Below are positions 25,891 through 46,004 of a DNA stretch of 64,000 bases, piece after piece (the stretch's first letter is position 1; every line of letters begins with the position of its first letter). The notes beneath the pieces are model-generated. The model did not search any database. It was not told where the DNA came from and worked only from the letters and a program-made list of their open reading frames with translations. This DNA comes from Hydrogenovibrio marinus (lineage in GTDB: Bacteria; Pseudomonadota; Gammaproteobacteria; Thiomicrospirales; Thiomicrospiraceae). Both the position numbers and the translations under genes were made by a program. The stretch spans positions 1,550,001 to 1,614,000 of the forward strand of contig NZ_AP020335.1 of the NCBI RefSeq assembly GCF_013340845.1. Reading direction: 5' to 3'.

Positions 25891-26706
25891 TTATTTCAAC
25901 AGACCTAGAACGTTTTGTTGCGATTGGTTCGCTTGAGACAACATGCTCATACCTGCTTGTTGTAGGATCTGAGTTCTTGCTAAGTTCGCACTTTCAGTCG
26001 CAAAGTCTGCATCTTCAATTCGGCTTCTTGCCGCCATGATGTTTTCGTTTACGTTCTTCAAGTTCGATACGGTGTAGTCCAAACGGTTTTGTACCGCACC
26101 GTACTTAGCACGTGTCTTCGCAATCGATACCAACGCACCATCAACCTGTGACATTACACCAAGTGCAGATGCCGCTGTTTGAATAGTACCTGTTACACCT
26201 AATGCAGAAGCTGCTACACGCTTCAATGAGATTTTGATGGTGTTTTGTGAGGCTGTTTCCCAACCGGCTTGGATAGAAACAGTTTTACTAGATGCCATCA
26301 ACTTAACACCGTTAAATTTGGTGGTTGAAGCAATACGCCCCATCTCGATTCTCAACTGAGAAACTTCAATGTTCATTTGTGAACGCTGAGCCGAGCTGTA
26401 GGTGGCGTTGGTTGCCTGAACCGCTAGCTCACGAACACGGTAAAGCATGTTTACCACTTCTTCCGCAGCACCATCTACAGTTTGCACCAATGAGATACCA
26501 TCATTTGCATTACGGATAGCCATTGTGGTACCACGAACTTGTGATGTCATAGACATTACAACCGCTTTACCTGCCGCGTCATCCGCTGTTTTGTTGATTC
26601 TTAGACCGGAAGTCAAACGCTCCATAGAGGTTGACATTTCTTTTTGAGATCTGTCTAACAGACGTACTGCATTTTCAGATGCAATATTAGTATTAATCAC
26701 TAACAT
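25891..26706 (-). CDS. fliC: Flagellin A (proximal copy of an identical pair)
   Basis: 271 aa from the ATG at 26706, which has AAGGAG upstream. Conserved D0/D1 ends (INTNIASENAVRLLDRS; ARTQILQQAGMSMLSQANQ) with only a short bridge, so the variable surface domains D2/D3 are absent. Such short flagellins still polymerise into filaments. The coding DNA is base-for-base identical to the gene at 27329. Followed directly by a strong terminator; preceded by a sigma-28 promoter. Confidence 0.97.
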   Translation of the reverse strand: MLVINTNIASENAVRLLDRSQKEMSTSMERLTSGLRINKTADDAAGKAVVMSMTSQVRGTTMAIRNANDGISLVQTVDGAAEEVVNMLYRVRELAVQATNATYSSAQRSQMNIEVSQLRIEMGRIASTTKFNGVKLMASSKTVSIQAGWETASQNTIKISLKRVAASALGVTGTIQTAASALGVMSQVDGALVSIAKTRAKYGAVQNRLDYTVSNLKNVNENIMAARSRIEDADFATESANLARTQILQQAGMSMLSQANQSQQNVLGLLK

Positions 26707-27328: not shown

Positions 27329-28144
27329 TTATTTCAACAGACCTAGAACGTTTTGTTGCGATTGGTTCGCTTGAGACAACATGCTCATACCTGCTTGTTG
27401 TAGGATCTGAGTTCTTGCTAAGTTCGCACTTTCAGTCGCAAAGTCTGCATCTTCAATTCGGCTTCTTGCCGCCATGATGTTTTCGTTTACGTTCTTCAAG
27501 TTCGATACGGTGTAGTCCAAACGGTTTTGTACCGCACCGTACTTAGCACGTGTCTTCGCAATCGATACCAACGCACCATCAACCTGTGACATTACACCAA
27601 GTGCAGATGCCGCTGTTTGAATAGTACCTGTTACACCTAATGCAGAAGCTGCTACACGCTTCAATGAGATTTTGATGGTGTTTTGTGAGGCTGTTTCCCA
27701 ACCGGCTTGGATAGAAACAGTTTTACTAGATGCCATCAACTTAACACCGTTAAATTTGGTGGTTGAAGCAATACGCCCCATCTCGATTCTCAACTGAGAA
27801 ACTTCAATGTTCATTTGTGAACGCTGAGCCGAGCTGTAGGTGGCGTTGGTTGCCTGAACCGCTAGCTCACGAACACGGTAAAGCATGTTTACCACTTCTT
27901 CCGCAGCACCATCTACAGTTTGCACCAATGAGATACCATCATTTGCATTACGGATAGCCATTGTGGTACCACGAACTTGTGATGTCATAGACATTACAAC
28001 CGCTTTACCTGCCGCGTCATCCGCTGTTTTGTTGATTCTTAGACCGGAAGTCAAACGCTCCATAGAGGTTGACATTTCTTTTTGAGATCTGTCTAACAGA
28101 CGTACTGCATTTTCAGATGCAATATTAGTATTAATCACTAACAT
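27329..28144 (-). CDS. fliC: Flagellin B (identical to flagellin A)
   Basis: 271 aa, identical in protein and in all 816 coding bases to flagellin A, as read line by line. It carries its own copy of the same ribosome site, sigma-28 promoter and upstream terminator. It has the same short D0/D1-only architecture. The flagellin A, B, C array is in tandem on the minus strand; dosage or recombination-based maintenance is likely (inference). Confidence 0.97.
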   Translation of the reverse strand: MLVINTNIASENAVRLLDRSQKEMSTSMERLTSGLRINKTADDAAGKAVVMSMTSQVRGTTMAIRNANDGISLVQTVDGAAEEVVNMLYRVRELAVQATNATYSSAQRSQMNIEVSQLRIEMGRIASTTKFNGVKLMASSKTVSIQAGWETASQNTIKISLKRVAASALGVTGTIQTAASALGVMSQVDGALVSIAKTRAKYGAVQNRLDYTVSNLKNVNENIMAARSRIEDADFATESANLARTQILQQAGMSMLSQANQSQQNVLGLLK

Positions 28145-28641: not shown

Positions 28642-29460
28642 TTATCGAAGTAAGCTTAGTACGTTTTGTTGCGATTGGTTCGCTTGAGACAACATACTCA
28701 TACCTGCTTGTTGTAGGATCTGAGTTCTTGCCAAGTTCGCACTTTCAGTCGCAAAGTTAGCATCTTCGATTCGGCTTCTTGCCGCCATGATGTTTTCGTT
28801 TACGTTCTGCAAGTTCGATACTGTGTAGTCCAAACGGTTTTGTACCGCACCGTACTTCGCACGAGTTTTTGCGATTGACCCTAGGGCTGCATCAACCTGT
28901 GACATTACACCTAGTGCTGAAGCTGCTGTCTGGATAGTACCAGTTACACCTAAAGCAGATGCGTTCATAGTTTTAAGTGAGATTTTAACTGTGTTTTGAG
29001 AAGCAGTTTCCCAACCAGCTTGGATGGAAACAGTCTTACTAGACGCCATCAACTTAACACCGTTAAATTTAGTGGTTGAAGCGATACGGTTCATCTCGAT
29101 TCTCAACTGAGAAACTTCAAGGTTCATTTGTGAACGCTGAGCTGAACTGTAGGTGGCGTTGGATGCCTGAACCGCTAGCTCACGAACACGATAAAGCATG
29201 TTTACCGTTTCTTCTGCAGCACCGTCAACAGTCTGTACAAGAGAAATACCATCATTTGCGTTACGGATAGCCATTGTGGTACCACGAACCTGTGATGTCA
29301 TAGACATTACAACCGCTTTACCTGCCGCGTCATCCGCAGTTTTGTTGATACGTAGACCAGAAGTCAAACGTTCCATAGAGGTAGACATTTCTTTTTGAGA
29401 TCTGTCCAACAAACGTACTGCATTTTCAGCAGCGATATTTGTGTTGATTACCATAGCCAT
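28642..29460 (-). CDS. fliC: Flagellin C (divergent third flagellin)
   Basis: 272 aa from the ATG at 29460 (GGGAG upstream). It matches flagellins A and B over its full length with scattered changes (IAAENA for IASENA, EETVNML for EEVVNML, KTMNASALG for KRVAASALG, NVLSLLR at the end). Its upstream sequence is unlike that of A and B, so its promoter evolved separately though it is still sigma-28 type. It may be the ancestral or specialised filament subunit (inference). Confidence 0.96.
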   Translation of the reverse strand: MAMVINTNIAAENAVRLLDRSQKEMSTSMERLTSGLRINKTADDAAGKAVVMSMTSQVRGTTMAIRNANDGISLVQTVDGAAEETVNMLYRVRELAVQASNATYSSAQRSQMNLEVSQLRIEMNRIASTTKFNGVKLMASSKTVSIQAGWETASQNTVKISLKTMNASALGVTGTIQTAASALGVMSQVDAALGSIAKTRAKYGAVQNRLDYTVSNLQNVNENIMAARSRIEDANFATESANLARTQILQQAGMSMLSQANQSQQNVLSLLR

Positions 29461-29561
29461 AATACTTACTCCCAAGTGGTTACTTTAGATATAGCTAAAT
29501 TTGCTATGTCCTAAACACTTCACGCTAATTCAGTATTTAAAACATTTTCCTTTCAGTTTAG

Positions 29562-34307: not shown

Positions 34308-35024
34308 TTATTTAAGCTGCATCTGACGCATTTTCAACAAGGCTTCAACTTGGAATACGTCTGTCAAATCGTCGATATCGACACCGGAAATACAATCCAT
34401 CACAAACAGTTCGGATTCCCCTTCTCCAGTAAACTCCCCCTTTTCCCGCAACCATTGCGGCGTCACAATATAGATAGCGCCGTTAATGACATAATAGTCA
34501 TTGGTGTAATCCTGACGGCGAGAAACAAACTTCTCCGGTTTGGCAAGATATTGCCACTCACCGTCTTGTTGCTGGATACATTTAAATGGGTGCTCCTTCA
34601 TCGGCTGAACACTGACCAACGACTGCTTGTCACTCGCCAGGAACTGCTCAATGGCATCATCCATTTCCTCTACGGTTCTCAATGGAGACGTCGGCTGAAG
34701 CAAGATAATTGCATCGGGCAATTCATTTCTTTCTTCTAACCAATCAAGGGCATGCAACACCGCTTCTGCGGTGGTCGTGTGATCTTCTGCAAGCGATGCT
34801 GGGCGAATATAGTTCACCTTTACACCAAGGCTTTCTGCATAACGGTTGATCTCCACGTCTTCACTCGACATCATCAACTTAGTGATATGACGGCTTTTCT
34901 GCGCTTCATCAATGGTGTATTGCAATAGCGGTTTGTCTAAAATCGGATAAAGGTTCTTTCCGATCAACCCTTTAGAGCCACCTCTTGCTGGAATCAAGGC
35001 TAAGATATTTGCCTGTTGTGTCAT
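34308..35024 (-). CDS. legF: CMP-nonulosonate (legionaminate) cytidylyltransferase
   Basis: 238 aa. Begins with the NeuA-type signature ALIPARGGSKGLIGKNL and contains LLQPTSPLRTVEEMDDAI. It charges a nine-carbon acidic sugar with CMP for transfer. Context (LegI, LegG, LegC, LegB, PtmE) points to legionaminic acid rather than sialic or pseudaminic acid. 12 bp upstream of ptmE. Confidence 0.88.
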   Translation of the reverse strand: MTQQANILALIPARGGSKGLIGKNLYPILDKPLLQYTIDEAQKSRHITKLMMSSEDVEINRYAESLGVKVNYIRPASLAEDHTTTAEAVLHALDWLEERNELPDAIILLQPTSPLRTVEEMDDAIEQFLASDKQSLVSVQPMKEHPFKCIQQQDGEWQYLAKPEKFVSRRQDYTNDYYVINGAIYIVTPQWLREKGEFTGEGESELFVMDCISGVDIDDLTDVFQVEALLKMRQMQLK

Positions 35025-35053: not shown

Positions 35054-36220
35054 TTATCTATCTTGCTTTGAGCAAAAATCCGACCAAATCTTATTCACCA
35101 GAATATTTATCGACTCGCTCGCACTTGGTAAGTGCGCTTTGGCTTGTCGCCACAGTCGCTGTTGTACTGGTTGTGTCAGTCCTTGCTCAAAAACTTCTAG
35201 CATCTGCTCTTCTTTATCGACCGACAGTAACAAATCTTCACTAATCAACGGCATTTCTTGCAGATGACTGTATTCCTGCCACCAAGCAATCAATTCAGGT
35301 TCAAACCAAAGATAAACACTGCTATTAAAAGCTTCCGGCGCCATTTCATTCAGGTATAAATTATCAAACCCGCAAGTGGAGAACGCACTCAGCACCAAAT
35401 CACACACAACCAAGCTGTCTTTGATGTCATTAAAGTTATCCAAGAACACATCGTCACCAAATGCCTCCTGAAACAAACTCAGGGTTTTGTGGCGAAGCTC
35501 ATCGGATTCTTTAGGGTGTGGGCGGTACATCAGTTTGAAAGGTCTTTGCCATTTGGACAGTTGACGGGTCAAGGCTTCTATCGTGGCAAAGTAACCAGGA
35601 ATCTCCAAAATAGGTTGTCCATAAAACCCTAAAACAACAGGCTTTCCAGCCTTCTTTTCATCTGAAAAATCTACCAGGTTGGGTCTATGGCTGGCTCGCG
35701 CCAATATTGGATCGTAATGTTGATAGTCGATATGCTTGATGGAACCGATGGCAATGCTTTCCACTTGCGGATAGCGTCTTTGCGTGATTCTCACAGCTTC
35801 GTCATCCAGTACAAAAGCGGTATCGGGTATCGCGCCGGAGGCTTGGTTCATATCACCCCAAAAGCTTTGTAGTGCATAGCTGTCGATGCCATGTTCGCGT
35901 GCATAGTGCAAAACCGCTTCATCCACACCGGTATCCGGCCCGGAAATGCCGGTTAGCACCGCATCAGGCGCAAACTCGGTAAACTGGTTTCTAAGAAAAT
36001 CGTCTTCAATCACTTGTGTGAATTCATCTGCTGGCATTTCCACCAACGTCAAAGGTTTGGTGGCGGAAGCATAGGCTTCTACAAGTGGTGCAAAAATCTG
36101 ACAGGCTGGCGGTTGGCAAAGTACGCGGATGGTAAAACGGTCATCCGACATCAGGGTGGGAATCAATCTTTCAAAAGATACGGCGGTGGCTGGGTCTCTG
36201 GCTGTAATGAGTAGTTTCAT
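35054..36220 (-). CDS. Unrecognised cytosolic protein of the glycosylation operon, GT-B/epimerase-like
   Basis: 388 aa from ATG 36220. Rossmann-like N-terminus (KLLITARDPATAVSFERLIP), a central VVLGFYGQPILEIPGYFA strand-loop and LMYRPHPKESDELRH resemble GT-B glycosyltransferases or UDP-sugar epimerases, and the RPHP stretch recalls polysialyl- and capsule-type transferases. I cannot name it. It could modify or transfer the nonulosonate. The dispersed element (copy 5) lies in its coding sequence and encodes PNLVDF. Confidence 0.7.
   Translation of the reverse strand: MKLLITARDPATAVSFERLIPTLMSDDRFTIRVLCQPPACQIFAPLVEAYASATKPLTLVEMPADEFTQVIEDDFLRNQFTEFAPDAVLTGISGPDTGVDEAVLHYAREHGIDSYALQSFWGDMNQASGAIPDTAFVLDDEAVRITQRRYPQVESIAIGSIKHIDYQHYDPILARASHRPNLVDFSDEKKAGKPVVLGFYGQPILEIPGYFATIEALTRQLSKWQRPFKLMYRPHPKESDELRHKTLSLFQEAFGDDVFLDNFNDIKDSLVVCDLVLSAFSTCGFDNLYLNEMAPEAFNSSVYLWFEPELIAWWQEYSHLQEMPLISEDLLLSVDKEEQMLEVFEQGLTQPVQQRLWRQAKAHLPSASESINILVNKIWSDFCSKQDR
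35666..35685 (+). repeat. Dispersed element, copy 5 (inside a gene)
   Basis: AAAATCTACCAGGTTGGGTC: the A variant at the R position and a T in place of the fourth G. The gene is read from the other strand, so mRNA has CCCAACCUGGUAGAUUUU and the peptide is PNLVDF. Confidence 0.85.
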
Positions 36221-36241
36221 AAACGTTGATAACAACCCACT

Positions 36242-37336
36242 TCAAGTTCGCGTCGTGTAGGGTTGCGTAATATTCTCAAGCTCCATTCGGTGTCGTTCTG
36301 CTAGATTATATAGAAAAACAAACTTTTTCCACTCTGAATTTGTCACAGGCTGTCGTTTCAACGTTAATTCCGCCAGTAACAGCATGGCTCGTACCGCCAG
36401 CGCCTGTATTAAATCCACAAACCTTTGCGGAGAAACAACCGTTGAAGGGTAAGCTTCAAAGTAGGCATCCAGCAAGGCATAGGCATGAGACTCTAGTTGC
36501 TCTGGTTCATGTACGGTGAGTACAAAACGCTCAATGATAAACGCCAAATCCTTTAAAGGATCAAACCATGCCGTCAAGCTGTCTTCAAAATCCAGAAAAG
36601 CCACATCTCCCGTGTCCAAAAACAGAATATTTCCCACATTCAAATCGCCATGCACCATCTGCGCCTGTTCGGTCAAGTGCCACAGCCACTCAGGGTTATG
36701 TGAAGACAAAATCGCTTGCGCTTCCTCTGGTAAAGAAGTCATCTGCGCCGCGTGTTGTTGCAAGCTCTGCCAACGCGTCACCAGCATGTGATGGCGCTTT
36801 TCACCGGCTTGCTGAACCGACTCCCGCTGTGGATAACTCGCCAGCGTTTGATGCAACTGACCAACTGCTCGACCCAGTTGCTTCAAATCGGTCTCATCAT
36901 AATTCGTCAAACGTCCTTGCCAGAAAGGATAAGCAAACGCCGTCACATCGTCCGCCAACACCAAGGGAAATCCATCAATTAACGGAGGTGAAACAACGCC
37001 ATGCTGAGAAACATAGTCAGCGACGTTCTGCGCCGCCATCAACCTTTCAGCTTGAGAAGGGTCAACCAGTTTGACAAACCAATCAACTTTTTGAGTTTGA
37101 GATTCCTGAGTTGGATTTTTTAACGTAATCACGCCTTGAAAGCGGTAGAAACCATAAGGCTGAGGGTGATGTGTATCCAACCGGTAGACAGTCGGCAAGC
37201 TCTCAAAAAGTGCTGTTAAAATCTGCCAGGTTGGGGATAGATAGGCAAGCGAGTGGTCATCCAAAAAGTATGGATTCCATTCCAACTCCGGCGGTCTTAG
37301 CCCAAGAAATGCAGGTTCAGCAGGTAGCCAACTCAT
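36242..37336 (-). CDS. Phosphotransferase of the APH/choline-kinase fold
   Basis: 364 aa. Catalytic loop VHGDLNVGNILF and metal site VAFLDFED mark the aminoglycoside phosphotransferase/choline kinase superfamily. In this operon a small-molecule kinase is expected to phosphorylate a sugar or sugar amine rather than an antibiotic. Neighbours are the neuB-like gene (16 bp upstream) and the unnamed GT-B-like gene (21 bp downstream). Copy 6 of the dispersed element lies near its 5' end. Confidence 0.75.
   Translation of the reverse strand: MSWLPAEPAFLGLRPPELEWNPYFLDDHSLAYLSPTWQILTALFESLPTVYRLDTHHPQPYGFYRFQGVITLKNPTQESQTQKVDWFVKLVDPSQAERLMAAQNVADYVSQHGVVSPPLIDGFPLVLADDVTAFAYPFWQGRLTNYDETDLKQLGRAVGQLHQTLASYPQRESVQQAGEKRHHMLVTRWQSLQQHAAQMTSLPEEAQAILSSHNPEWLWHLTEQAQMVHGDLNVGNILFLDTGDVAFLDFEDSLTAWFDPLKDLAFIIERFVLTVHEPEQLESHAYALLDAYFEAYPSTVVSPQRFVDLIQALAVRAMLLLAELTLKRQPVTNSEWKKFVFLYNLAERHRMELENITQPYTTRT
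37218..37237 (+). repeat. Dispersed element, copy 6 (inside a gene)
   Basis: AAAATCTGCCAGGTTGGGGA inside the APH-fold gene; on the coding strand it is read as SPTWQIL, a different frame from copies 5 and 8. Confidence 0.88.
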
Positions 37337-37352: not shown

Positions 37353-38420
37353 TCAATCGTCTTTGAATTCAACATCCGACCAACGGATAACCTGACCCGC
37401 GGCAATCGGATTTTTAAGTACGTGCCCTTCCACTTCAGACCAATACTCAGCTTTGATACCCTGCGCTGGAAAAGCGAAGTGCACGCTTTCCAAGGTCAGA
37501 GTGTCCTGCGCCTTCAAGTGGGTTTTCGCTACCATCCCCATGCGAGAAACATACTTGTCTCGTTGACGCGGCAATACTCGGATGCCATCGCCCATCGCAT
37601 CGGCAATGTTATGAATTTTCTGCAATACTTCGGCAACTTGACCAATCGGCAAGGCATGACCGCCGTCCTGTTCATCACCCATATCGTCGTGACAAACGCC
37701 TTTCTCCAATACCACGGCACCCATAGCCGTCGCGGCATACAGCATTTCTTCACCACCATGATGGTCAGATAAACCATAAGGCAATCCAACGGCATTGCCT
37801 AAGGTTTGCATAAACTTGAGGTTTTGCTGATCCACAGGGTTTGGTGGGCCTTTCGGACTGTGCTCAACCACCAAGTCAACTTCATGGTTTGCAGCGGCAT
37901 CTTGTGCCCAGTTGACGGCTCTCGCCATCTCTTCAATCGTGGAATGACCGGTATCAATAATCATCGGCAACCCAAGGCGTGCGACATATTCAATCAGCGG
38001 TTGATGGGTGATATTTGAAGAAGCGATTTTGATGGCTTTGCAGCCAATTTCTTTGGCGAAATCTGCGCCTTCAAAATCATAGACAGAGACAATGACATCC
38101 ATGCCTTTTTGCTTGGCATAGTTGAACAACTCTTCATAAGCACTTAACGGCAAGACTTTACGTTCAATCAGCGCACGGTAATTTTCCTCGACAACTTGAC
38201 CTGTCTTGTGTCCCCAGAACTTTTCATTGCCGGATAATTCCGCATCCAGACAAACATCGGCATTTTGCAGAACCTCACCTTTAACCGTAGTGACACCCGT
38301 TGCCGCCAAAGCATCAATCATGCTTTTGGCTTCATCCATGTCCTGATTGAAATAGGTACCGATGTCCGGTAAAAACAACGGGCGTTTCGAATCTTGAATG
38401 TGTTGCCAATAACCTGCCAT
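37353..38420 (-). CDS. Second NeuB-family synthase homologue with an altered metal site
   Basis: 355 aa from ATG 38420 (GGAG 7 bp upstream); a GTG six codons earlier is less likely. A TIM-barrel NeuB fold is followed by a C-terminal SAF (antifreeze-like) domain (HVLKNPIAAGQVIRWSDV). Of the two metal-binding histidines of the family, the SDH histidine is present (H220) but the EKH histidine 21 residues on is glycine (EKG, G241). The N-terminal VKFQT is replaced by VKGEV. A different reaction or a non-catalytic role is likely. Classic LegI is encoded separately at 44976. Confidence 0.8.
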   Translation of the reverse strand: MAGYWQHIQDSKRPLFLPDIGTYFNQDMDEAKSMIDALAATGVTTVKGEVLQNADVCLDAELSGNEKFWGHKTGQVVEENYRALIERKVLPLSAYEELFNYAKQKGMDVIVSVYDFEGADFAKEIGCKAIKIASSNITHQPLIEYVARLGLPMIIDTGHSTIEEMARAVNWAQDAAANHEVDLVVEHSPKGPPNPVDQQNLKFMQTLGNAVGLPYGLSDHHGGEEMLYAATAMGAVVLEKGVCHDDMGDEQDGGHALPIGQVAEVLQKIHNIADAMGDGIRVLPRQRDKYVSRMGMVAKTHLKAQDTLTLESVHFAFPAQGIKAEYWSEVEGHVLKNPIAAGQVIRWSDVEFKDD

Positions 38421-38451: not shown

Positions 38452-39087
38452 TCATACCTTCAAAAAGGCTTCAATCAATCTTAAACCCATCTCACCCGAT
38501 TTTTCCGGGTGGAACTGACAGCCCATGCGGTTATCCTGCTGCACTGCCGCGGTAATAGCGTGACCACCGAAATCAAATACCGCCAATTGATCAGTTTCAT
38601 TCGCCACATCGGCAAAATAAGAATGCACAAAATAGAACGCATTGGTTTCCGGTACGGATGTCAATAGACTGTTTTGCCAAGGCGTTTTGTTCGGTCTGAT
38701 TTGCGCCCACCCCATGTGTGGAATCGTCATGATTTCACCTGAAATACTGGTTTCCGGTAGTTTTCTGACTTTGCCGGGTAAAAGTTTTAAGCCTTCGGTG
38801 GTACCGAATTCTTCACTTTCCTCTAGCATCATCTGCATGCCCAGGCATATCCCTAAAAAGGGTTTTTGCTCGGCAGCGATCTGAATGGCTTCTACCAGGT
38901 TTTGTGTTTTAAGTTGTTGCATGGCTTCAGGAAACGCCCCTACGCCGGGGAATACCAAACGATCTGCTTGCTCAACTTGCTCTGGGGTGGTGGCGATTTC
39001 GGTTTGCGCACCTTGATGTTCAAACGCACGCTGCACATTCAGCAGGTTACCTGCGCCGTAATCGATAATGGTGACCTTTGCACTCAT
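38452..39087 (-). CDS. hisH: HisH-type glutamine amidotransferase for sugar amidation
   Basis: 211 aa. Class I glutaminase: nucleophile C81 in LGICLGMQMM and His/Glu in QFHPEKSGE (~residue 193). Overlaps hisF by 4 bp, and both stand in an operon with a WbpG-type amidotransferase. In Pseudomonas O-antigen loci the HisH2/HisF2/WbpG set makes acetamidino groups; the same job on legionaminic acid fits here better than histidine synthesis, since no other his gene is near. Confidence 0.87.
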   Translation of the reverse strand: MSAKVTIIDYGAGNLLNVQRAFEHQGAQTEIATTPEQVEQADRLVFPGVGAFPEAMQQLKTQNLVEAIQIAAEQKPFLGICLGMQMMLEESEEFGTTEGLKLLPGKVRKLPETSISGEIMTIPHMGWAQIRPNKTPWQNSLLTSVPETNAFYFVHSYFADVANETDQLAVFDFGGHAITAAVQQDNRMGCQFHPEKSGEMGLRLIEAFLKV

Positions 39088-39860
39088 GATGCGGCCTCCA
39101 AAATCGCTTGGGGAGGACGCACCTCCAACCCATTGTCCAAACAGACTTGGCGAATGCCGCCTACCGCATCACGGTCATAATGCAGAATATCCGCCATCGC
39201 AATGGCATCCGCTCCCGCTTTCACCGCATCCACACCGTGCATGGCTTCACCCATACCGCCGGAAGCGATTACGGGGACATTCACCGCAGAGGTCACCGCT
39301 CTCACCAAATCCAAATCATAGCCTTTACGCCCGCCTTCATGGTCAACCGATGTCAGCAATATTTCACCCGCGCCTCTCTCCACAGCCTGCGTTACCCACT
39401 CGACCACATCCAATCCTGTGTGCTCACGACCGTTATCGGTAAACGCTAACCATCTGCCATCTGCTTGTTTAATGGCTTCTACCGACAGCACCACGCATTG
39501 CTCACCAAAGGTTTTCGCCATCTCATTAATCAAATCAGGGCGTTGAACGGCTGCGGTATTGATAGCAACTTTATCTGCACCGGAACGCAGGATTTCACGG
39601 GCATCCGCTACCGAACGAATTCCGCCACCAACAGTAATCGGGATAAACACGGATTTAACAGTTTCTTTGATGATTTCCGTCAGGTTGTTACGACCATAAA
39701 GCGAAGCCACTGCATCCATATAGAGCAGTTCATCCGCGCCTTGCTCGTAATAACGGCGGGCATATTCATTCGGGTTACCAATTTTACGCAACCCTTCCAA
39801 CTTCACCCCTTTAATCAGGTGAGAGGATTTAATATCAAGACGAGGGATTAAGCGAATCAT
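39084..39860 (-). CDS. hisF: HisF-type ammonia-channelling partner for sugar amidation
   Basis: 258 aa. A (beta/alpha)8 barrel very like HisF: RLDIK at 8-12 holds the first catalytic-type aspartate (D9), but the second catalytic aspartate of imidazoleglycerol-phosphate synthase (the AIDAKR site) is glutamate here (SVEAIK, E128). That change is consistent with delivering ammonia to WbpG rather than closing imidazole. Upstream neighbour is an unknown membrane protein whose end overlaps this start by 26 bp. Confidence 0.87.
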   Translation of the reverse strand: MIRLIPRLDIKSSHLIKGVKLEGLRKIGNPNEYARRYYEQGADELLYMDAVASLYGRNNLTEIIKETVKSVFIPITVGGGIRSVADAREILRSGADKVAINTAAVQRPDLINEMAKTFGEQCVVLSVEAIKQADGRWLAFTDNGREHTGLDVVEWVTQAVERGAGEILLTSVDHEGGRKGYDLDLVRAVTSAVNVPVIASGGMGEAMHGVDAVKAGADAIAMADILHYDRDAVGGIRQVCLDNGLEVRPPQAILEAAS

Positions 39861-40503
39861 GTTTAATATCTAATTTTTTTAACAAAAATTCTGCACTTGA
39901 TAACTGGTCATGTTCATCAAGAGCACTCCATGCAATCAGGTAAAAAGTTACACATAAAAATGCCAATACATAAAGATCTTCAAAGCTAGCTAGGGCTTTT
40001 GCCAAAGCGGGAATAAACGCCAAGATCATAGTAGCTAAAAATGCTGTTATAAAATAAATGCAAAAATACCAATATTTTTTTACAGTTAATTTACTCAATT
40101 TTCTAAATAAAAAAGAATGTTTGTCATATTCTTTTTTAATTTTCACTTCATTCAAATTTGGATCAAATTCAATATATTTAGTTGACTTAGAATAAAGTCT
40201 CAATAATTCGGATGTATCATATTTTTCTAAAAAAAAATTAAGCAACGTATAGCTAAAATCAAATCCGTATCTCATCGAAAAACTTTGCTCTAATAATACT
40301 TCCTTTAACTTACGAGGAAGCTTGCTTGAATGATATTCACTCAGCGCCTTTGAAAGTGCTTCTACACTATCCCGTTCATTCTTCTTTGATTTCATCTGAT
40401 ATTCTCTAAGCTTGTAGAATGAATAAACACCAAACATAGAAAGCATAATGATTACAGACGAACCCGTTATGTAGTGAACTAGAATATTAATTTCGGAAAA
40501 CAC
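39835..40503 (-). CDS. Unknown AT-rich membrane protein
   Basis: 222 aa, not recognised. One hydrophobic helix near residues 11-30 and two near 145-165 and 175-195; between them a charged, Lys/Leu/Tyr-rich cytoplasmic stretch. Base composition is clearly more A/T-rich than the flanking hisF and wbpG genes, suggesting late arrival in the operon. It overlaps the 5' end of hisF by 26 bp, so it is probably expressed with the amidotransferase set. Confidence 0.7.
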   Translation of the reverse strand: MFSEINILVHYITGSSVIIMLSMFGVYSFYKLREYQMKSKKNERDSVEALSKALSEYHSSKLPRKLKEVLLEQSFSMRYGFDFSYTLLNFFLEKYDTSELLRLYSKSTKYIEFDPNLNEVKIKKEYDKHSFLFRKLSKLTVKKYWYFCIYFITAFLATMILAFIPALAKALASFEDLYVLAFLCVTFYLIAWSALDEHDQLSSAEFLLKKLDIKHDSLNPSS

Positions 40504-40509
40504 CGGAAT

Positions 40510-41826
40510 TTACCTCCAAACCGTATGACGTTGCACCCAAACCCCATTTTCTTTCTTCCATAAATGCGGTGAGCGGAAAGTGTCTGCCAATAGGTCAAAA
40601 TACTCTCTGTCCATAATCGGTTGCTCGAACATTTTGGAGGCGATTGGGAATTCTTTTTCCGGAATACTCAGGTATTGGAAAATCTCTTCGGCAAAACGCT
40701 CAGGGAATTCCATATCAAAACGTTTCACTAGCGCCACACCTTCTTCGCGGTCAATATCGCCGGAACGAATCTCTTGCGCGGCATCATAGGTTGCACGCCC
40801 AATACCGAATTTCACACCCGTGGTGTAGTAATGAAAGTCATCGATTTTGTCATCAATGGAGTTGTACTTGGAATAGGTGCCCGGCGTTCTCTCAGGAGAA
40901 GCTTCAAACCCACCATGTTCATGCGCATAGTAGTAGCAGCTTTGTGGATGCCATTTCAGGTAGTAACCCAAGTAATGCACTTCCACACCCGTTTCTTTCA
41001 ACTTCTCAGGGTCTGCCGGCATATAAGGGTCTAGGTCGGACTTTTCCAACCCGAAATCTTCTTTTAGGGACTTGATGGACACACCGCCGATATTGATGTC
41101 CGCTTCATCAGTCATGGTGAAATATTGCCAATCACGTTGCGCCTTATCGGTATCGCCTTTTGGATTACCGTATTCGGCTTCGTTCTCACCGAAGAATACC
41201 AACGGGATATTCATCATCGCCGCCATTTTCGGTGCCAAGGCTTTTTGCCCGATCATAAACGCTTGGAACGGATGGAACAGCTTCTCTACCGACAAACGGG
41301 TCAACAAGCGGTGTACACGACCGTTTGGCGTCATCAGTTGATTATCGAAACCAGCATGAATCCAACGTTGGAAATTACGCCATCCCCATTCGGTATAGAT
41401 ATGCGGTGCCCAAGTCACGGTAAATGGGTGCATGCCGTATTTTTCTTTCAGGATATGCGAGGCATAAAAACTGTCTTTTCCACCTGAGCCTGGCAATAAA
41501 CAATCATAAGAACCGTCTTTTGAGCGATGCTTGTCGCACAAGGCTTGCAACTCTTCTTCACGCATGCCCCAGTCAATCGTATGTTCTTTTTCTTCCGCGA
41601 CACGACACGCATCACACACACCCTCTTCATCAAAATTGATGGTGGCTTTTTTGGAGTCTTTGGTGTGCTTATACTCGACTGCAGAGTTAGGTCGTTGGTT
41701 GGAAATGGTACATTTTTTACAGAACTTCACATCATGCGGCAGACCGTATTTGGTAGCGAGCTGGTCTTCTGGAAGTTCAAATTGAGAAAGATCGACAGGT
41801 GTTGGTTTTGGAATTAGAAATGACAT
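40510..41826 (-). CDS. N-acetyl sugar amidotransferase, WbpG/PseA family
   Basis: 438 aa. PP-loop ATPase motif SGGKDS at 114-119 and two CxxC pairs (C36/C39 in FCKKC; C71/C74 in CDAC) that would bind zinc. The family converts an N-acetyl group on a sugar to an acetamidino group using ammonia from HisH/HisF. First gene of an operon that runs to ptmE, started by a sigma-28 promoter. Substrate, probably a Leg or Pse derivative, is inferred. Confidence 0.9.
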   Translation of the reverse strand: MSFLIPKPTPVDLSQFELPEDQLATKYGLPHDVKFCKKCTISNQRPNSAVEYKHTKDSKKATINFDEEGVCDACRVAEEKEHTIDWGMREEELQALCDKHRSKDGSYDCLLPGSGGKDSFYASHILKEKYGMHPFTVTWAPHIYTEWGWRNFQRWIHAGFDNQLMTPNGRVHRLLTRLSVEKLFHPFQAFMIGQKALAPKMAAMMNIPLVFFGENEAEYGNPKGDTDKAQRDWQYFTMTDEADINIGGVSIKSLKEDFGLEKSDLDPYMPADPEKLKETGVEVHYLGYYLKWHPQSCYYYAHEHGGFEASPERTPGTYSKYNSIDDKIDDFHYYTTGVKFGIGRATYDAAQEIRSGDIDREEGVALVKRFDMEFPERFAEEIFQYLSIPEKEFPIASKMFEQPIMDREYFDLLADTFRSPHLWKKENGVWVQRHTVWR

Positions 41827-41951: not shown

Positions 41952-43769
41952 TCAGCCCACCGCCTCGATTTTATGCGCATTTTTTGTGAAATAAGCGAAG
42001 GTGTTTTTCGATAATTCCTGCTGCTGTTTTTGCTGCTCGTCTATCGCTGTTTGCAACTGATTGTAAATTGCTGGTGCATCCTGCTGCGCTTGTGCTGCTA
42101 AGGTTGAATGCTTCAATCGCCAAGGCAAGAAACGGTGCGGTTTATCATGCTGCAACCAAAGCTTTGTCAGTGCTTCGAAATCGTGCTCAGCTTCCAGCTC
42201 GTGCAATAGAAACTGCCCTTTTTCCTGCGACTGCTGAACGGTAGCAATCAACTGTGCCGCTGAGTCACGATAAGCTTCAAATAGTGTTTGAAAATATTGC
42301 CGCGTCAAAGCTTGGTTGTTAGGTTCTTGCTCCAGTTTTTCTGTCAACTGAATCACAAATGTGAAAAACTTAAAGCCGAATCGCTGGATAAAGGCATCCT
42401 CGCTGTGAGTTAACTTCTTCAGCTTTTTATCGGCTTTGGCGAACTTTTGTATCAACACTTCATCCGGCTGAGAAGACGACGAAGCTGCAAGCGTTTTGAT
42501 GCAAAGTTGTTTAATATCTCGGTACTTTCTTTGCAGCGAGTGTAGTTCCGTCAGGAGGTGTTTGATAGCCGTTTTGCCTGAAGGGCTTTCTACAGACAAC
42601 TTTGCTTGCAGATCATCAATAGATGTCTTTTGAGAGGATGGCAGCTTAAGGCTTGTGATGTCAGTTACATTGACACCATCGATTCTGGCGGCTTTAGGAT
42701 TAAGGTTCCATAACTCAAAATCATTTGGCAAACCATAACGCTGAACGAGTGTTTGCAGCTGCTCTGGCAAAGCATCTATCGCGCTTTTGAATTCCAGCGT
42801 TGTCTCACAGATTTCACCCAAATAGTTTTCGACCTGCTCGCTTTGTTCATAGCGATGGGTGTGATTGGATTCTATGCTCCCCTTTAGGTGGGTTTCACCG
42901 GATGGTGGAAAACAAAAATCGAACCCTGCCAGGTAAACCGTTTTGCACCCCATGCCTAAAGCCGATACCACTGCAAGATTGGCAACGGTGCCGCCTGACA
43001 CTTCCACATTCCTTTCTTGCCCGAAATCTTTACTTTCTTGAGGCCATTTTGGCCCCCAGTAAAGCATGCTGCCACCCCAACGCTCCAACAATGCTGGCTT
43101 GCTATAGTGTTGCACCACCAGAACACTCTTGTTCTGCAACAGCTCCATGTCTTGTGCATGCGCCAGTGAAGCTTCAGTAGGATCTGAGGCAACGAGAAAG
43201 TCGGGATAAACGTCCTCTTCCAAGAGTTTTTTGGCAAGCCTTGCCACAGCGAAAACAACCAACTTTTCCTGATGTTGTTTCAACCAGGGCAATAGCTTCT
43301 CAAGTGAAGGTGCCGCACCCAGAACCACCGCTGTTTTGCCTTCATAAGCATCCGAAAATTCAATAATCGGATGACTGAGGTCATAAACATTCAGCAAAGC
43401 ATTTTTGACGTAAAAAGGATAATCCGCCCGAAGTTTGAAATATCTTAGAGATTCCAGCGCTTGAGGTAGTTGTTGCATCAAATCCAAAGCCAATGCATTC
43501 TGTTTGGACAATACAATCGCTTCTAGCTCTCGTGACTCCAACAGTTCATAAAAAGGTAACAGCGTGGTTTGCAAATCAGTTTGATAACCAACTCTGTGTA
43601 ATTGTTCAGGTAGTTTACGATTGGTGGTCTCTGCGCTTTCAGTCTCGATTAAAAGGTAATGATCAGATTCAGCACTTTGAATTCGGGTATGAAGTTCGGC
43701 GTTCAGTTCGTCCAATGCGCCAATCAAAACGACAATAGGGTTACTGTCATCAGTCGCATTAAACGTCAT
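41952..43769 (-). CDS. Motility-associated glycosyltransferase Maf2 (DUF115), short form
   Basis: 605 aa from ATG 43769, which overlaps the legG stop; the open frame extends 31 codons further inside legG and lacks family sequence. Core motif GAAPSLEK (151-158) and FLVASDPTEASLAHA match the Maf family. The C-terminal ~250 residues are helical and Gln-rich. Last gene of the legBCHIG-maf2 operon. Two Maf proteins of different size may divide flagellins or sugars between them. Confidence 0.85.
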   Translation of the reverse strand: MTFNATDDSNPIVVLIGALDELNAELHTRIQSAESDHYLLIETESAETTNRKLPEQLHRVGYQTDLQTTLLPFYELLESRELEAIVLSKQNALALDLMQQLPQALESLRYFKLRADYPFYVKNALLNVYDLSHPIIEFSDAYEGKTAVVLGAAPSLEKLLPWLKQHQEKLVVFAVARLAKKLLEEDVYPDFLVASDPTEASLAHAQDMELLQNKSVLVVQHYSKPALLERWGGSMLYWGPKWPQESKDFGQERNVEVSGGTVANLAVVSALGMGCKTVYLAGFDFCFPPSGETHLKGSIESNHTHRYEQSEQVENYLGEICETTLEFKSAIDALPEQLQTLVQRYGLPNDFELWNLNPKAARIDGVNVTDITSLKLPSSQKTSIDDLQAKLSVESPSGKTAIKHLLTELHSLQRKYRDIKQLCIKTLAASSSSQPDEVLIQKFAKADKKLKKLTHSEDAFIQRFGFKFFTFVIQLTEKLEQEPNNQALTRQYFQTLFEAYRDSAAQLIATVQQSQEKGQFLLHELEAEHDFEALTKLWLQHDKPHRFLPWRLKHSTLAAQAQQDAPAIYNQLQTAIDEQQKQQQELSKNTFAYFTKNAHKIEAVG

Positions 43770-44973
43770 AAGAGAGGTCGTAGAATCGCTTAGGCAGCAA
43801 GGTGTCAAAATCTGTTTTTTCAAGCACTTGGAGTATCTGTTGGGCGGTATCGCCTTTACCATAAAGGCTGGTGACGCCAGCTGTCGATAACTTCATGGCG
43901 TGGTGGATGGCGTCAATGATAGCGGCTGTAGATTCATCACATTGGATAATAGAGTCTGCCATCAGTCTGCCTTTTTGGCGTTCGCCTATATTCACAGTCG
44001 GCGTACCGATGGCGGGTGCTTCGATGATGCCGCTGGAGGAGTTCCCCACGACGACATCGCATAAGCCCATCAAGCTCAAATAACGCTGCGAGCCTAGTGA
44101 GGTAACAAACTCGGCATTCACTTCGGTTTCCACCACCCATTGTTGGATGCGCTGATTCAAAGCATGCCCACCGACATCAGTGTTGGACGCCGTCCAAACA
44201 ATCGACATATCCGGGTAATCTGTTTTCAAGGATTCAAAGGCATTAAACAGGTTTTCCAGTGCCTGTTGCCCTTGTGTGTCCCCCCAAGAAACCGGATGAT
44301 AAGTCACCAAAAAAATCGGGGAGTGAATGGTCATCTCCAAAAAGGTTTCGATCTCAGTCAACGGCAGTTTGTCGATCTGATAAATCACATCCAAACCCGG
44401 TGCGCCAACATTAAAGACGGTATCGGGTTGCTCGCCCATCTGAACCACTCTCTGGCGATAAGGTTCTGCAGCAACAAAGTGTAGGGAAGCCATTTTGGTA
44501 ACCGCATGGCGGATAGCGTCATCTACCGCGCCTTCTGTCACCTCTCCCCCATGGAGATGGAAAATGGGGATATTCGCCAATAAGGCTGCCGAGCAGATGC
44601 CGAGTAACTCATAACGATCGCCCAAAACAAAGAGTGCATCAGGATGATGTTGTGCAAAAACCGACGCGAAACCTTCTAGTGCTTTGGCAGTGGTTTTGGA
44701 AATGCCGAATGGTGTGTCTAGCTCTGAATGGCTCAAAATGGGCACTTCTGCCGTAATGGGATGACCATCCTGACGGATGCGCTCAACGGTATAGCCTTGC
44801 TCATCTGACAAGTGTCCACCGGTAACATACAGCTGCAACTCAAAATCAGGATGCTTTTCCAGCAAACCAATCAATTGTGACAGTAGCCCATACTCGGCAC
44901 GGGTTGCCGTCACCACAGCGATTTTGCGCCGGTTTTGTGCTTGTTGAAACTGTTTAGTCGAGGCTATCGTCAA
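43759..44973 (-). CDS. legG: UDP-sugar 2-epimerase (hydrolysing), LegG/NeuC-like
   Basis: 404 aa. KIAVVTATRAEYGLLSQL and LHGGEVTEGAVDDAIRHAVTKM are hallmarks of NeuC-type enzymes that invert C2 and release the nucleotide to give a 2,4-diacetamido-mannose precursor of legionaminic acid. A ~15-residue N-terminal extension (to QNRRK) precedes the fold. It lies between legI (2 bp upstream) and maf2. Confidence 0.9.
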   Translation of the reverse strand: MTIASTKQFQQAQNRRKIAVVTATRAEYGLLSQLIGLLEKHPDFELQLYVTGGHLSDEQGYTVERIRQDGHPITAEVPILSHSELDTPFGISKTTAKALEGFASVFAQHHPDALFVLGDRYELLGICSAALLANIPIFHLHGGEVTEGAVDDAIRHAVTKMASLHFVAAEPYRQRVVQMGEQPDTVFNVGAPGLDVIYQIDKLPLTEIETFLEMTIHSPIFLVTYHPVSWGDTQGQQALENLFNAFESLKTDYPDMSIVWTASNTDVGGHALNQRIQQWVVETEVNAEFVTSLGSQRYLSLMGLCDVVVGNSSSGIIEAPAIGTPTVNIGERQKGRLMADSIIQCDESTAAIIDAIHHAMKLSTAGVTSLYGKGDTAQQILQVLEKTDFDTLLPKRFYDLSYDV

Positions 44974-44975
44974 GG

Positions 44976-46004
44976 CTATACTCCATCATCACCATCAATG
45001 CCAATCTCAATGCCATCATCCACTTCATAGTCCAACTGCGCCGTTTGCCCAAGAATCCTATCCCACTCGGCCGCTAGTGCACCTTTTTCCGAACGCTTGA
45101 GGGTGACATTGTCTTCACTCAAAATCATACCCGCTTCAATCGGCTGTTTGGCAACAATGCGCTTGCGAACCAAAGATTTGTGCCCGCTTTCGGAGGTTGA
45201 GGTAACTTTTTCACCCGACCCCAGAGCCAATTCGATATGACGAATGGCACTCACCATCGCCTTTAATTCCTGAGGTTCAAGACTGGCTTGATGATCTGGC
45301 CCCGGCAGGGTTTTATCCAATGTGAAGTGCTTTTCAATCACCGCAGCGCCTAACGCTACCGCTGCCGTTGGCACTTCAATGCCAAGAGAGTGATCCGACA
45401 AACCTACTGCCACCTGAAAAGTTTCCGCCAGCGTCAGCATCGCTCTTAAATTGACGTCCTCAAAAGGCGTTGGGTAAGCGGTGTTTGCATGCAGAATGGT
45501 GAGATGTTTTTTGCTCAAACCCGCTTTCAACAAGGTATCGACCGCTAAATGTACTTCGGCAAGATTCCCCATACCTGTCGAGAGAATGGTTGGCTCATCA
45601 AACGCGGCGATTTTGCGTAAATAAGGAATGGACAACAATTCGCCCGATGGAATTTTCCAGCGACGCATGCCCAAAGCTTTCAAGAAATCGATACTGTCAT
45701 CGTCAAACGGCGTTGACATGAACTCGATGTTTTTATCGTTACAGTAATCAAACAATTCCTTGTGTGCGGCTTCAGAAAGCTCAAGTGATTTGAGTAGTTC
45801 GTACTGTGTTTGCGTTTGCCCGGTATTTTTTTCCTGATAAGCCGCTTGCGCCAGACTTTTCGACACCAAGCTGTCCGCCTTGAAAGTCTGGAATTTGACG
45901 GCATCCGCGCCTGCTTCTACCGCAGCGTCGACCAACGCAAAGGCTCGGGGTAAATCACCGTTATGATTCACGCCTGCTTCGGCGATGACAAAGACTGCAG
46001 CCAT
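44976..46004 (-). CDS. legI: N,N'-diacetyllegionaminate synthase
   Basis: 342 aa. IAEAGVNHNGDLPRAFALVD start, both metal ligands present (GLSDH, H205; VIEKH, H226) and a C-terminal SAF domain (KRIVAKQPIEAGMILSEDNV). Condenses phosphoenolpyruvate with the 6-deoxy-mannosamine-type sugar from LegG. Its ATG shares bases with the neuD stop. In contrast to the homologue at 37353, the active site looks intact. Confidence 0.92.
   Translation of the reverse strand: MAAVFVIAEAGVNHNGDLPRAFALVDAAVEAGADAVKFQTFKADSLVSKSLAQAAYQEKNTGQTQTQYELLKSLELSEAAHKELFDYCNDKNIEFMSTPFDDDSIDFLKALGMRRWKIPSGELLSIPYLRKIAAFDEPTILSTGMGNLAEVHLAVDTLLKAGLSKKHLTILHANTAYPTPFEDVNLRAMLTLAETFQVAVGLSDHSLGIEVPTAAVALGAAVIEKHFTLDKTLPGPDHQASLEPQELKAMVSAIRHIELALGSGEKVTSTSESGHKSLVRKRIVAKQPIEAGMILSEDNVTLKRSEKGALAAEWDRILGQTAQLDYEVDDGIEIGIDGDDGV

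Follow-up and report, generated by a model that had tools for sequence, protein, structure and literature searches.

A clade of NeuB-like proteins with a replaced active-site pocket accompanies an APH-fold kinase in nonulosonate loci

In a 64,000-nucleotide stretch of Hydrogenovibrio marinus DNA (hereafter the window), a NeuB-like protein encoded next to genes that make a sialic acid-like sugar for the flagellum carries a set of pocket replacements that recurs in three phyla, in about 25 bacteria altogether. Judged by sequence, this paralogue of the LegI encoded nearby represents a distinct deep clade and is not a recently damaged LegI copy. The explanation that we favor, with middling confidence, is that the clade is an ancient group of active NeuB-fold enzymes whose pocket has been remodeled for chemistry that differs from the standard condensation of PEP with an N-acyl-hexose. 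NeuB homologues serve as markers of sialic acid-like sugars, and a clade member would by similarity be annotated as an N-acetylneuraminate synthase, an annotation that is probably wrong. The clade marks a paired enzyme–kinase step in nonulosonate biosynthesis for which we found no description in the open-access literature, and it provides a clean test of how the NeuB superfamily changes chemistry.

A Divergent NeuB-Like Protein That Retains Fold and Domains

The paralogue (355 aa) is encoded on the minus strand at 37353 to 38420, from an ATG at 38420, preceded 8 bases upstream by GGAG, to a stop codon at 37353 to 37355; the plus strand across the same interval is interrupted by stops. It consists of a NeuB TIM barrel (residues 34 to 280, minus strand, 37581 to 38321; Pfam PF03102, E = 8e-45, 153.6 bits with a cutoff of 22.1) followed by a SAF domain (residues 297 to 351, minus strand, 37368 to 37532; PF08666, E = 5e-11, 43.3 bits with a cutoff of 21). 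The protein falls far under the NCBIfam equivalog cutoffs for both NeuB_NnaB (167.7 versus 399.65) and PseI (147.1 versus 340.25). Its AlphaFold2 model (mean pLDDT 83) superposes on Neisseria meningitidis NeuB (NmNeuB) with a VIA Z of 32 over 337 residues, in keeping with the preliminary description, which had stated that the SAF domain and the NeuB fold remain. Because the rmsd is 8.3 for the whole chain and only 2.2 (256 residues) for the barrel alone compared with 6ncs, the SAF domain appears to be displaced in the model.

Distribution and Phylogeny of the Clade

Eleven other genomes of the same taxonomic family contain a full-length relative with at least 44% identity to the paralogue. A scan of 84,980 species, with one genome per species, recovered 24 paralogue loci, which is a lower bound because the scan rested on two peptide patterns. 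The hosts are Piscirickettsiaceae (Hydrogenovibrio, Thiomicrorhabdus), Methyloprofundus, Legionellaceae, several Alphaproteobacteria, Verrucomicrobiota and Desulfovibrio; many of the loci come from MAGs, the names of which may be unreliable, and two near-identical contigs (L037 and L038) bear different names. The clade is rare, as a 398-genome sample of the phylum contained no clear member besides that of the window (the best other protein, which has EKH at the second metal site, scored 198 bits versus 524 for the paralogue). The plasmid collection yielded 59 records, all with less than 60% identity to the paralogue, and the ten matches listed are all below 30%.

A maximum-likelihood tree built from 84 proteins places the members in one clade (support 100/100, stem length 1.62), separate from the LegI group, a PseI-like group and a group with Thr at the second metal His (EKT). 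The tree is unrooted and the word "lost," as applied to this histidine, thus cannot be read from it. We reject a recent pseudogene or damaged LegI copy on the strength of a dN/dS of 0.03 between the paralogue and a 95% identical relative, the depth of the clade and the invariance of its new residues.

The Active-Site Pocket Is Replaced in a Coordinated Manner

Sites were counted over 29 clade members and 61 canonical synthases, with totals that differ by site because contig ends cut some members. NmNeuB numbering was transferred through the LegI alignment, and the position of R314 was fixed by the R314A/R314K chains. Ligand contacts in NmNeuB comprise Glu25, Gln55, Asn74, Thr110, Phe112, Lys129, Asn184, Tyr186, Ser213, His215, Glu234, Phe288 and Arg314 (PMC6795526), and the Neu, Leg and Pse synthases are described as having in common the surroundings of PEP and C1, with N184 listed near PEP in NmNeuB (PMC7371886).

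Two metal-binding histidines, 21 residues apart, are present in LegI (H205 and H226). As described before, the paralogue keeps the first, His220 (minus strand, 37761 to 37763; NmNeuB H215), which is His in 27/27 clade members, and has Gly241 (minus strand, 37698 to 37700) in place of the second, NmNeuB H236. All 26 clade members that cover this site carry the EKG motif, and His is found in 61/61 canonical synthases, which argues that the glycine is not a matter of chance. The change noted earlier in the VKFQT segment is likewise seen: the paralogue reads VKGEV, with the Lys kept and the Gln changed to Glu. This Glu49 (minus strand, 38274 to 38276) replaces NmNeuB Gln55 and is invariant in the clade (29/29; Gln in 61/61 canonical synthases).

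To speak of a lost histidine understates the change: six or more further positions of the active site are switched, and Arg314 of the SAF domain is missing as well. Asp156 (minus strand, 37953 to 37955) replaces NmNeuB Ser154 (Asp in 27/27 clade members, Ser in 61/61 canonical synthases), E134 is replaced by Asn (N136 in the paralogue; 27/27), F112 by Tyr (28/28), and Y186 by Pro, Asn or His. Canonical synthases have Ser or Thr at the N184 position, which is unconstrained in the clade; together with S154 it presumably lies at the PEP phosphate in the NmNeuB structure. Arg314, which in NmNeuB reaches from the SAF domain into the active site of the partner subunit, is replaced by Phe317 (minus strand, 37470 to 37472), the residue being aromatic in 26/26 members (17 Phe and 9 Trp; 58 Arg and 4 Gly in the canonical set). 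Further invariants found only in the clade include an ENYRxLIERK helix, H139 and P189. The new pocket residues, switched ones included, show the same invariance as their canonical counterparts.

Not everything has changed. The clade keeps K53 (29/29), T110 (as Ser), K129, S213 (with one Thr), H215 and E234, and mostly keeps S132 and D247. In the paralogue, the residues retained include the carboxylate-holding lysines K47 and K131, along with S218, H220 and E239, and the protein would therefore probably still bind a three-carbon unit or a completed ulosonic acid by its carboxylate end. The replacements affect the surroundings of the PEP phosphate, the second metal ligand and the sugar-contacting SAF-domain Arg, and the sequence shows two new invariant acids, E49 and D156, and a new histidine, H255. 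The altered positions belong to the very PEP/C1 region that is conserved in Neu, Leg and Pse synthases, which, together with the dN/dS of 0.03, makes decay unlikely.

These replacements bear on the main rival to our favored explanation, a PEP-dependent ulosonate synthase that uses an unusual sugar and either an alternative metal site (E49, D156, D252 or H255) or no metal. The fold and the PEP-carboxylate residues are kept, and non-metal KDO8P synthases occur in the superfamily; moreover, the sugar substrate could be phosphorylated by the linked kinase (see below), much as animals proceed through ManNAc-6-P. Use of PEP is possible given the retained equivalents of K53, T110 (as Ser), K129, S132 and S213, and an alternative metal ligand is possible too, with E49, D156, D252 and H255 as candidates. 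H255 does not serve as a universal replacement ligand, since it is present in 21/26 members and the other five have H188 instead. However, S154 is Asp in 27/27 members, the N184 position is unconstrained, and on the sugar side both R314 and Y186 are gone, so that we regard a PEP-dependent synthase as a somewhat doubtful possibility. The active enzyme with non-standard chemistry is favored indirectly, in that residues on the PEP side and the sugar side are replaced in a coordinated and invariant manner, which is also as far as the earlier suggestion of a different aldol-type reaction is borne out.

Comparison with Related Synthases

With the NeuB, LegI and PseI synthases, its closest known counterparts (NmNeuB 1XUU/1XUZ, Campylobacter jejuni PseI 8H2C and Bacillus subtilis SpsE 1VLI), the paralogue shares the TIM barrel and SAF domain, one metal His, the PEP-carboxylate lysines, and the equivalents of S213 and E234. 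In contrast to these enzymes, its second metal His is Gly and Q55, E134, S154, Y186 and R314 are switched. The best sequence match in the PDB, a putative SpsE from Chromobacterium violaceum (3G8R; E = 2e-17), differs in that it keeps the second His (EKH). The barrel is also shared with KDO8P and DAHP synthases (VIA Z 22 to 24), which are without a SAF domain and have their own set of metal ligands.

The EKT group (L060, L061 and L078) resembles the clade in that it is without the second metal His and has Asp at S154 and Pro at P189; E134 is replaced here as well, by Asp. However, it has Thr rather than Gly at the metal site, keeps Q55, Y186 and R314, and forms a separate clade, and no linked kinase was seen in its three loci. 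The EKT neighborhoods (L086, L087 and L088) contain hisH, hisF, wbpG and a cytidylyltransferase gene in L086 and hisF in L088.

An APH-Fold Kinase Accompanies the Paralogue

Immediately downstream of the paralogue (minus strand, 36242 to 37336) lies a gene for an APH-fold small-molecule kinase (Pfam APH, 58.8 bits), in which the HGDxxxxN and DFE/D motifs are intact (HGDLNVGN and DFED). Such a kinase is present in 20/20 loci whose contig continues past the paralogue, and directly downstream in 18; in the other four of the 24 loci the contigs end within the paralogue gene. The kinase profile matches structures of YihE, maltokinase and glucosamine kinase. The partner kinase would phosphorylate the substrate or the product of the paralogue.

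Five members, from Verrucomicrobiota and Rhodospirillaceae, have R134, H188, C219 and S/T255 in place of S/T134, S/R188, D219 and H255. In exactly this subclade with the swapped pocket (L047, L049, L051, L052 and L055), the HGD of the kinase becomes HGQ, HAQ or HGE. As the five members form a single clade, the co-change of the two proteins counts as one evolutionary event. Because both changed together, these data suggest that the paralogue and the kinase may share a target molecule or work as a pair. Phosphorylation may not extend to the whole clade, since the kinase of the subclade is without the canonical catalytic Asp.

From these sequence patterns we infer that the paralogue is a catalyst, that it does not use PEP as such synthases usually do, and that the molecule which it consumes or produces is the target of the kinase. 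The step would be of aldol or retro-aldol type, on or beside the legionaminic acid pathway. More tentatively, and as a possibility that we consider well short of probable, the clade may have left PEP chemistry for a new step that makes or breaks a C–C bond on molecules of the nonulosonate pathway, with the kinase as an obligate partner, and bacterial flagellar and surface glycans would then contain a ulosonic acid, phosphorylated or rearranged, of a kind not described so far.

Biosynthetic Neighborhood and LegI

The canonical LegI-type synthase (minus strand, 44976 to 46004; TIGR03569, 474.8 bits, cutoff 399.65) is accompanied by a NeuC/LegG-type UDP-sugar 2-epimerase (minus strand, 43759 to 44973; TIGR03568, 430.8 bits, cutoff 235.9). 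A LegI/NeuB-type synthase was found in 8/8 other genomes tested, and none of these eight carried the paralogue without LegI, which speaks neither for nor against a regulation of LegI by the paralogue.

This co-occurrence is relevant to two further alternatives. According to the first, the paralogue has no catalytic activity and regulates LegI or the kinase, or serves one of them as a scaffold, as the missing second metal ligand, the LegI-type synthase in every genome tested and the strict kinase linkage would allow. A scaffold would have little reason to acquire and hold constant a novel group of residues in its pocket, yet these vary no more than the canonical ones do. Such fixation within the pocket speaks against a pseudoenzyme, which we consider unlikely, a role limited to binding being possible. 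The second alternative, a lyase or epimerase, would give an epimer by reversibly cleaving the C3–C4 bond of completed legionaminic acid, either free or CMP-linked, and would not need the PEP phosphate pocket. This would agree with a kept carboxylate side, a changed phosphate side and the co-occurrence with LegI, and epi-legionaminic acids are mentioned in the literature, the terms occurring in PMC11356810 and PMC4345345. However, it leaves the kinase unexplained and no epimer is known from these organisms, so that we regard it as very unlikely.

Upstream of the paralogue lies an amidotransferase set consisting of a HisH-type glutaminase (minus strand, 38452 to 39087; TIGR01855, 218 bits, cutoff 105), a HisF/WbuZ-type cyclase subunit (minus strand, 39084 to 39860; Pfam His_biosynth, 215 bits) and a WbpG/WbuX N-acetyl sugar amidotransferase (minus strand, 40510 to 41826; TIGR03573, 393.8 bits, cutoff 203.2). 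The WbuX and HisH family models are above their cutoffs, and the HisF/WbuZ-type gene is narrowly under the WbuZ equivalog cutoff (282 versus 299.7). The wbpG-hisF-hisH order beside the paralogue occurs in 8/24 loci, in the near clade only, which rules out a wbpG link as a clade-wide rule. Thus, of the EKG change next to wbpG, for which the preliminary description proposed a search, the EKG motif holds throughout and the link does not; likewise, of the kinase and amidotransferase that it placed in the operon, the kinase proves general and the amidotransferase does not. Formyltransferase and PIG-L deacetylase genes replace wbpG and hisHF in other loci; the tailoring genes differ between loci and the paralogue–kinase pair is constant. 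On this synteny, the pair is an add-on to a Leg-type pathway, whatever its N-substituent genes (amidino or formyl).

Downstream of the kinase, a protein that we call surf393 (minus strand, 35054 to 36235; AlphaFold2 pLDDT 89) has a GT-B fold (VIA Z 24.9 over 334 residues), resembles NeuC/UDP-GlcNAc 2-epimerase and MurG, and accompanies the paralogue in 11 related loci. By itself, the GT-B fold is no indication of function. Assignment as a CDP-alcohol transferase was rejected, as the Glyphos_transf match (E = 6e-4) is below cutoff and found in one member only, and the fold is nearer to NeuC and MurG. The sole cytidylyltransferase of the cluster follows (minus strand, 34308 to 35024) and is PseF-like (Pfam CTP_transf_3, 78 bits; PseF 131 versus a cutoff of 205.7).

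The slot between wbpG and hisF (39835 to 40503 in the window, 5678 to 6546 in L032 and 5861 to 6550 in L034) holds seemingly unrelated small proteins in close relatives, some of them membrane-like, and is empty in L033 and L035; the 222-aa protein of the window has no clear relative in any related locus. Four of the more distant loci encode a radical SAM/SPASM protein close to the paralogue (L046, 1152 to 2198; L048, 2024 to 3073; L050, 11883 to 12800; L052, 2456 to 3481). Elsewhere in the window, two flagellin genes (25891 to 26706 and 27329 to 28144) are identical over 816 bases with zero mismatch, the result of a recent duplication or gene conversion, and a third similar copy lies beside them at 28642 to 29475.
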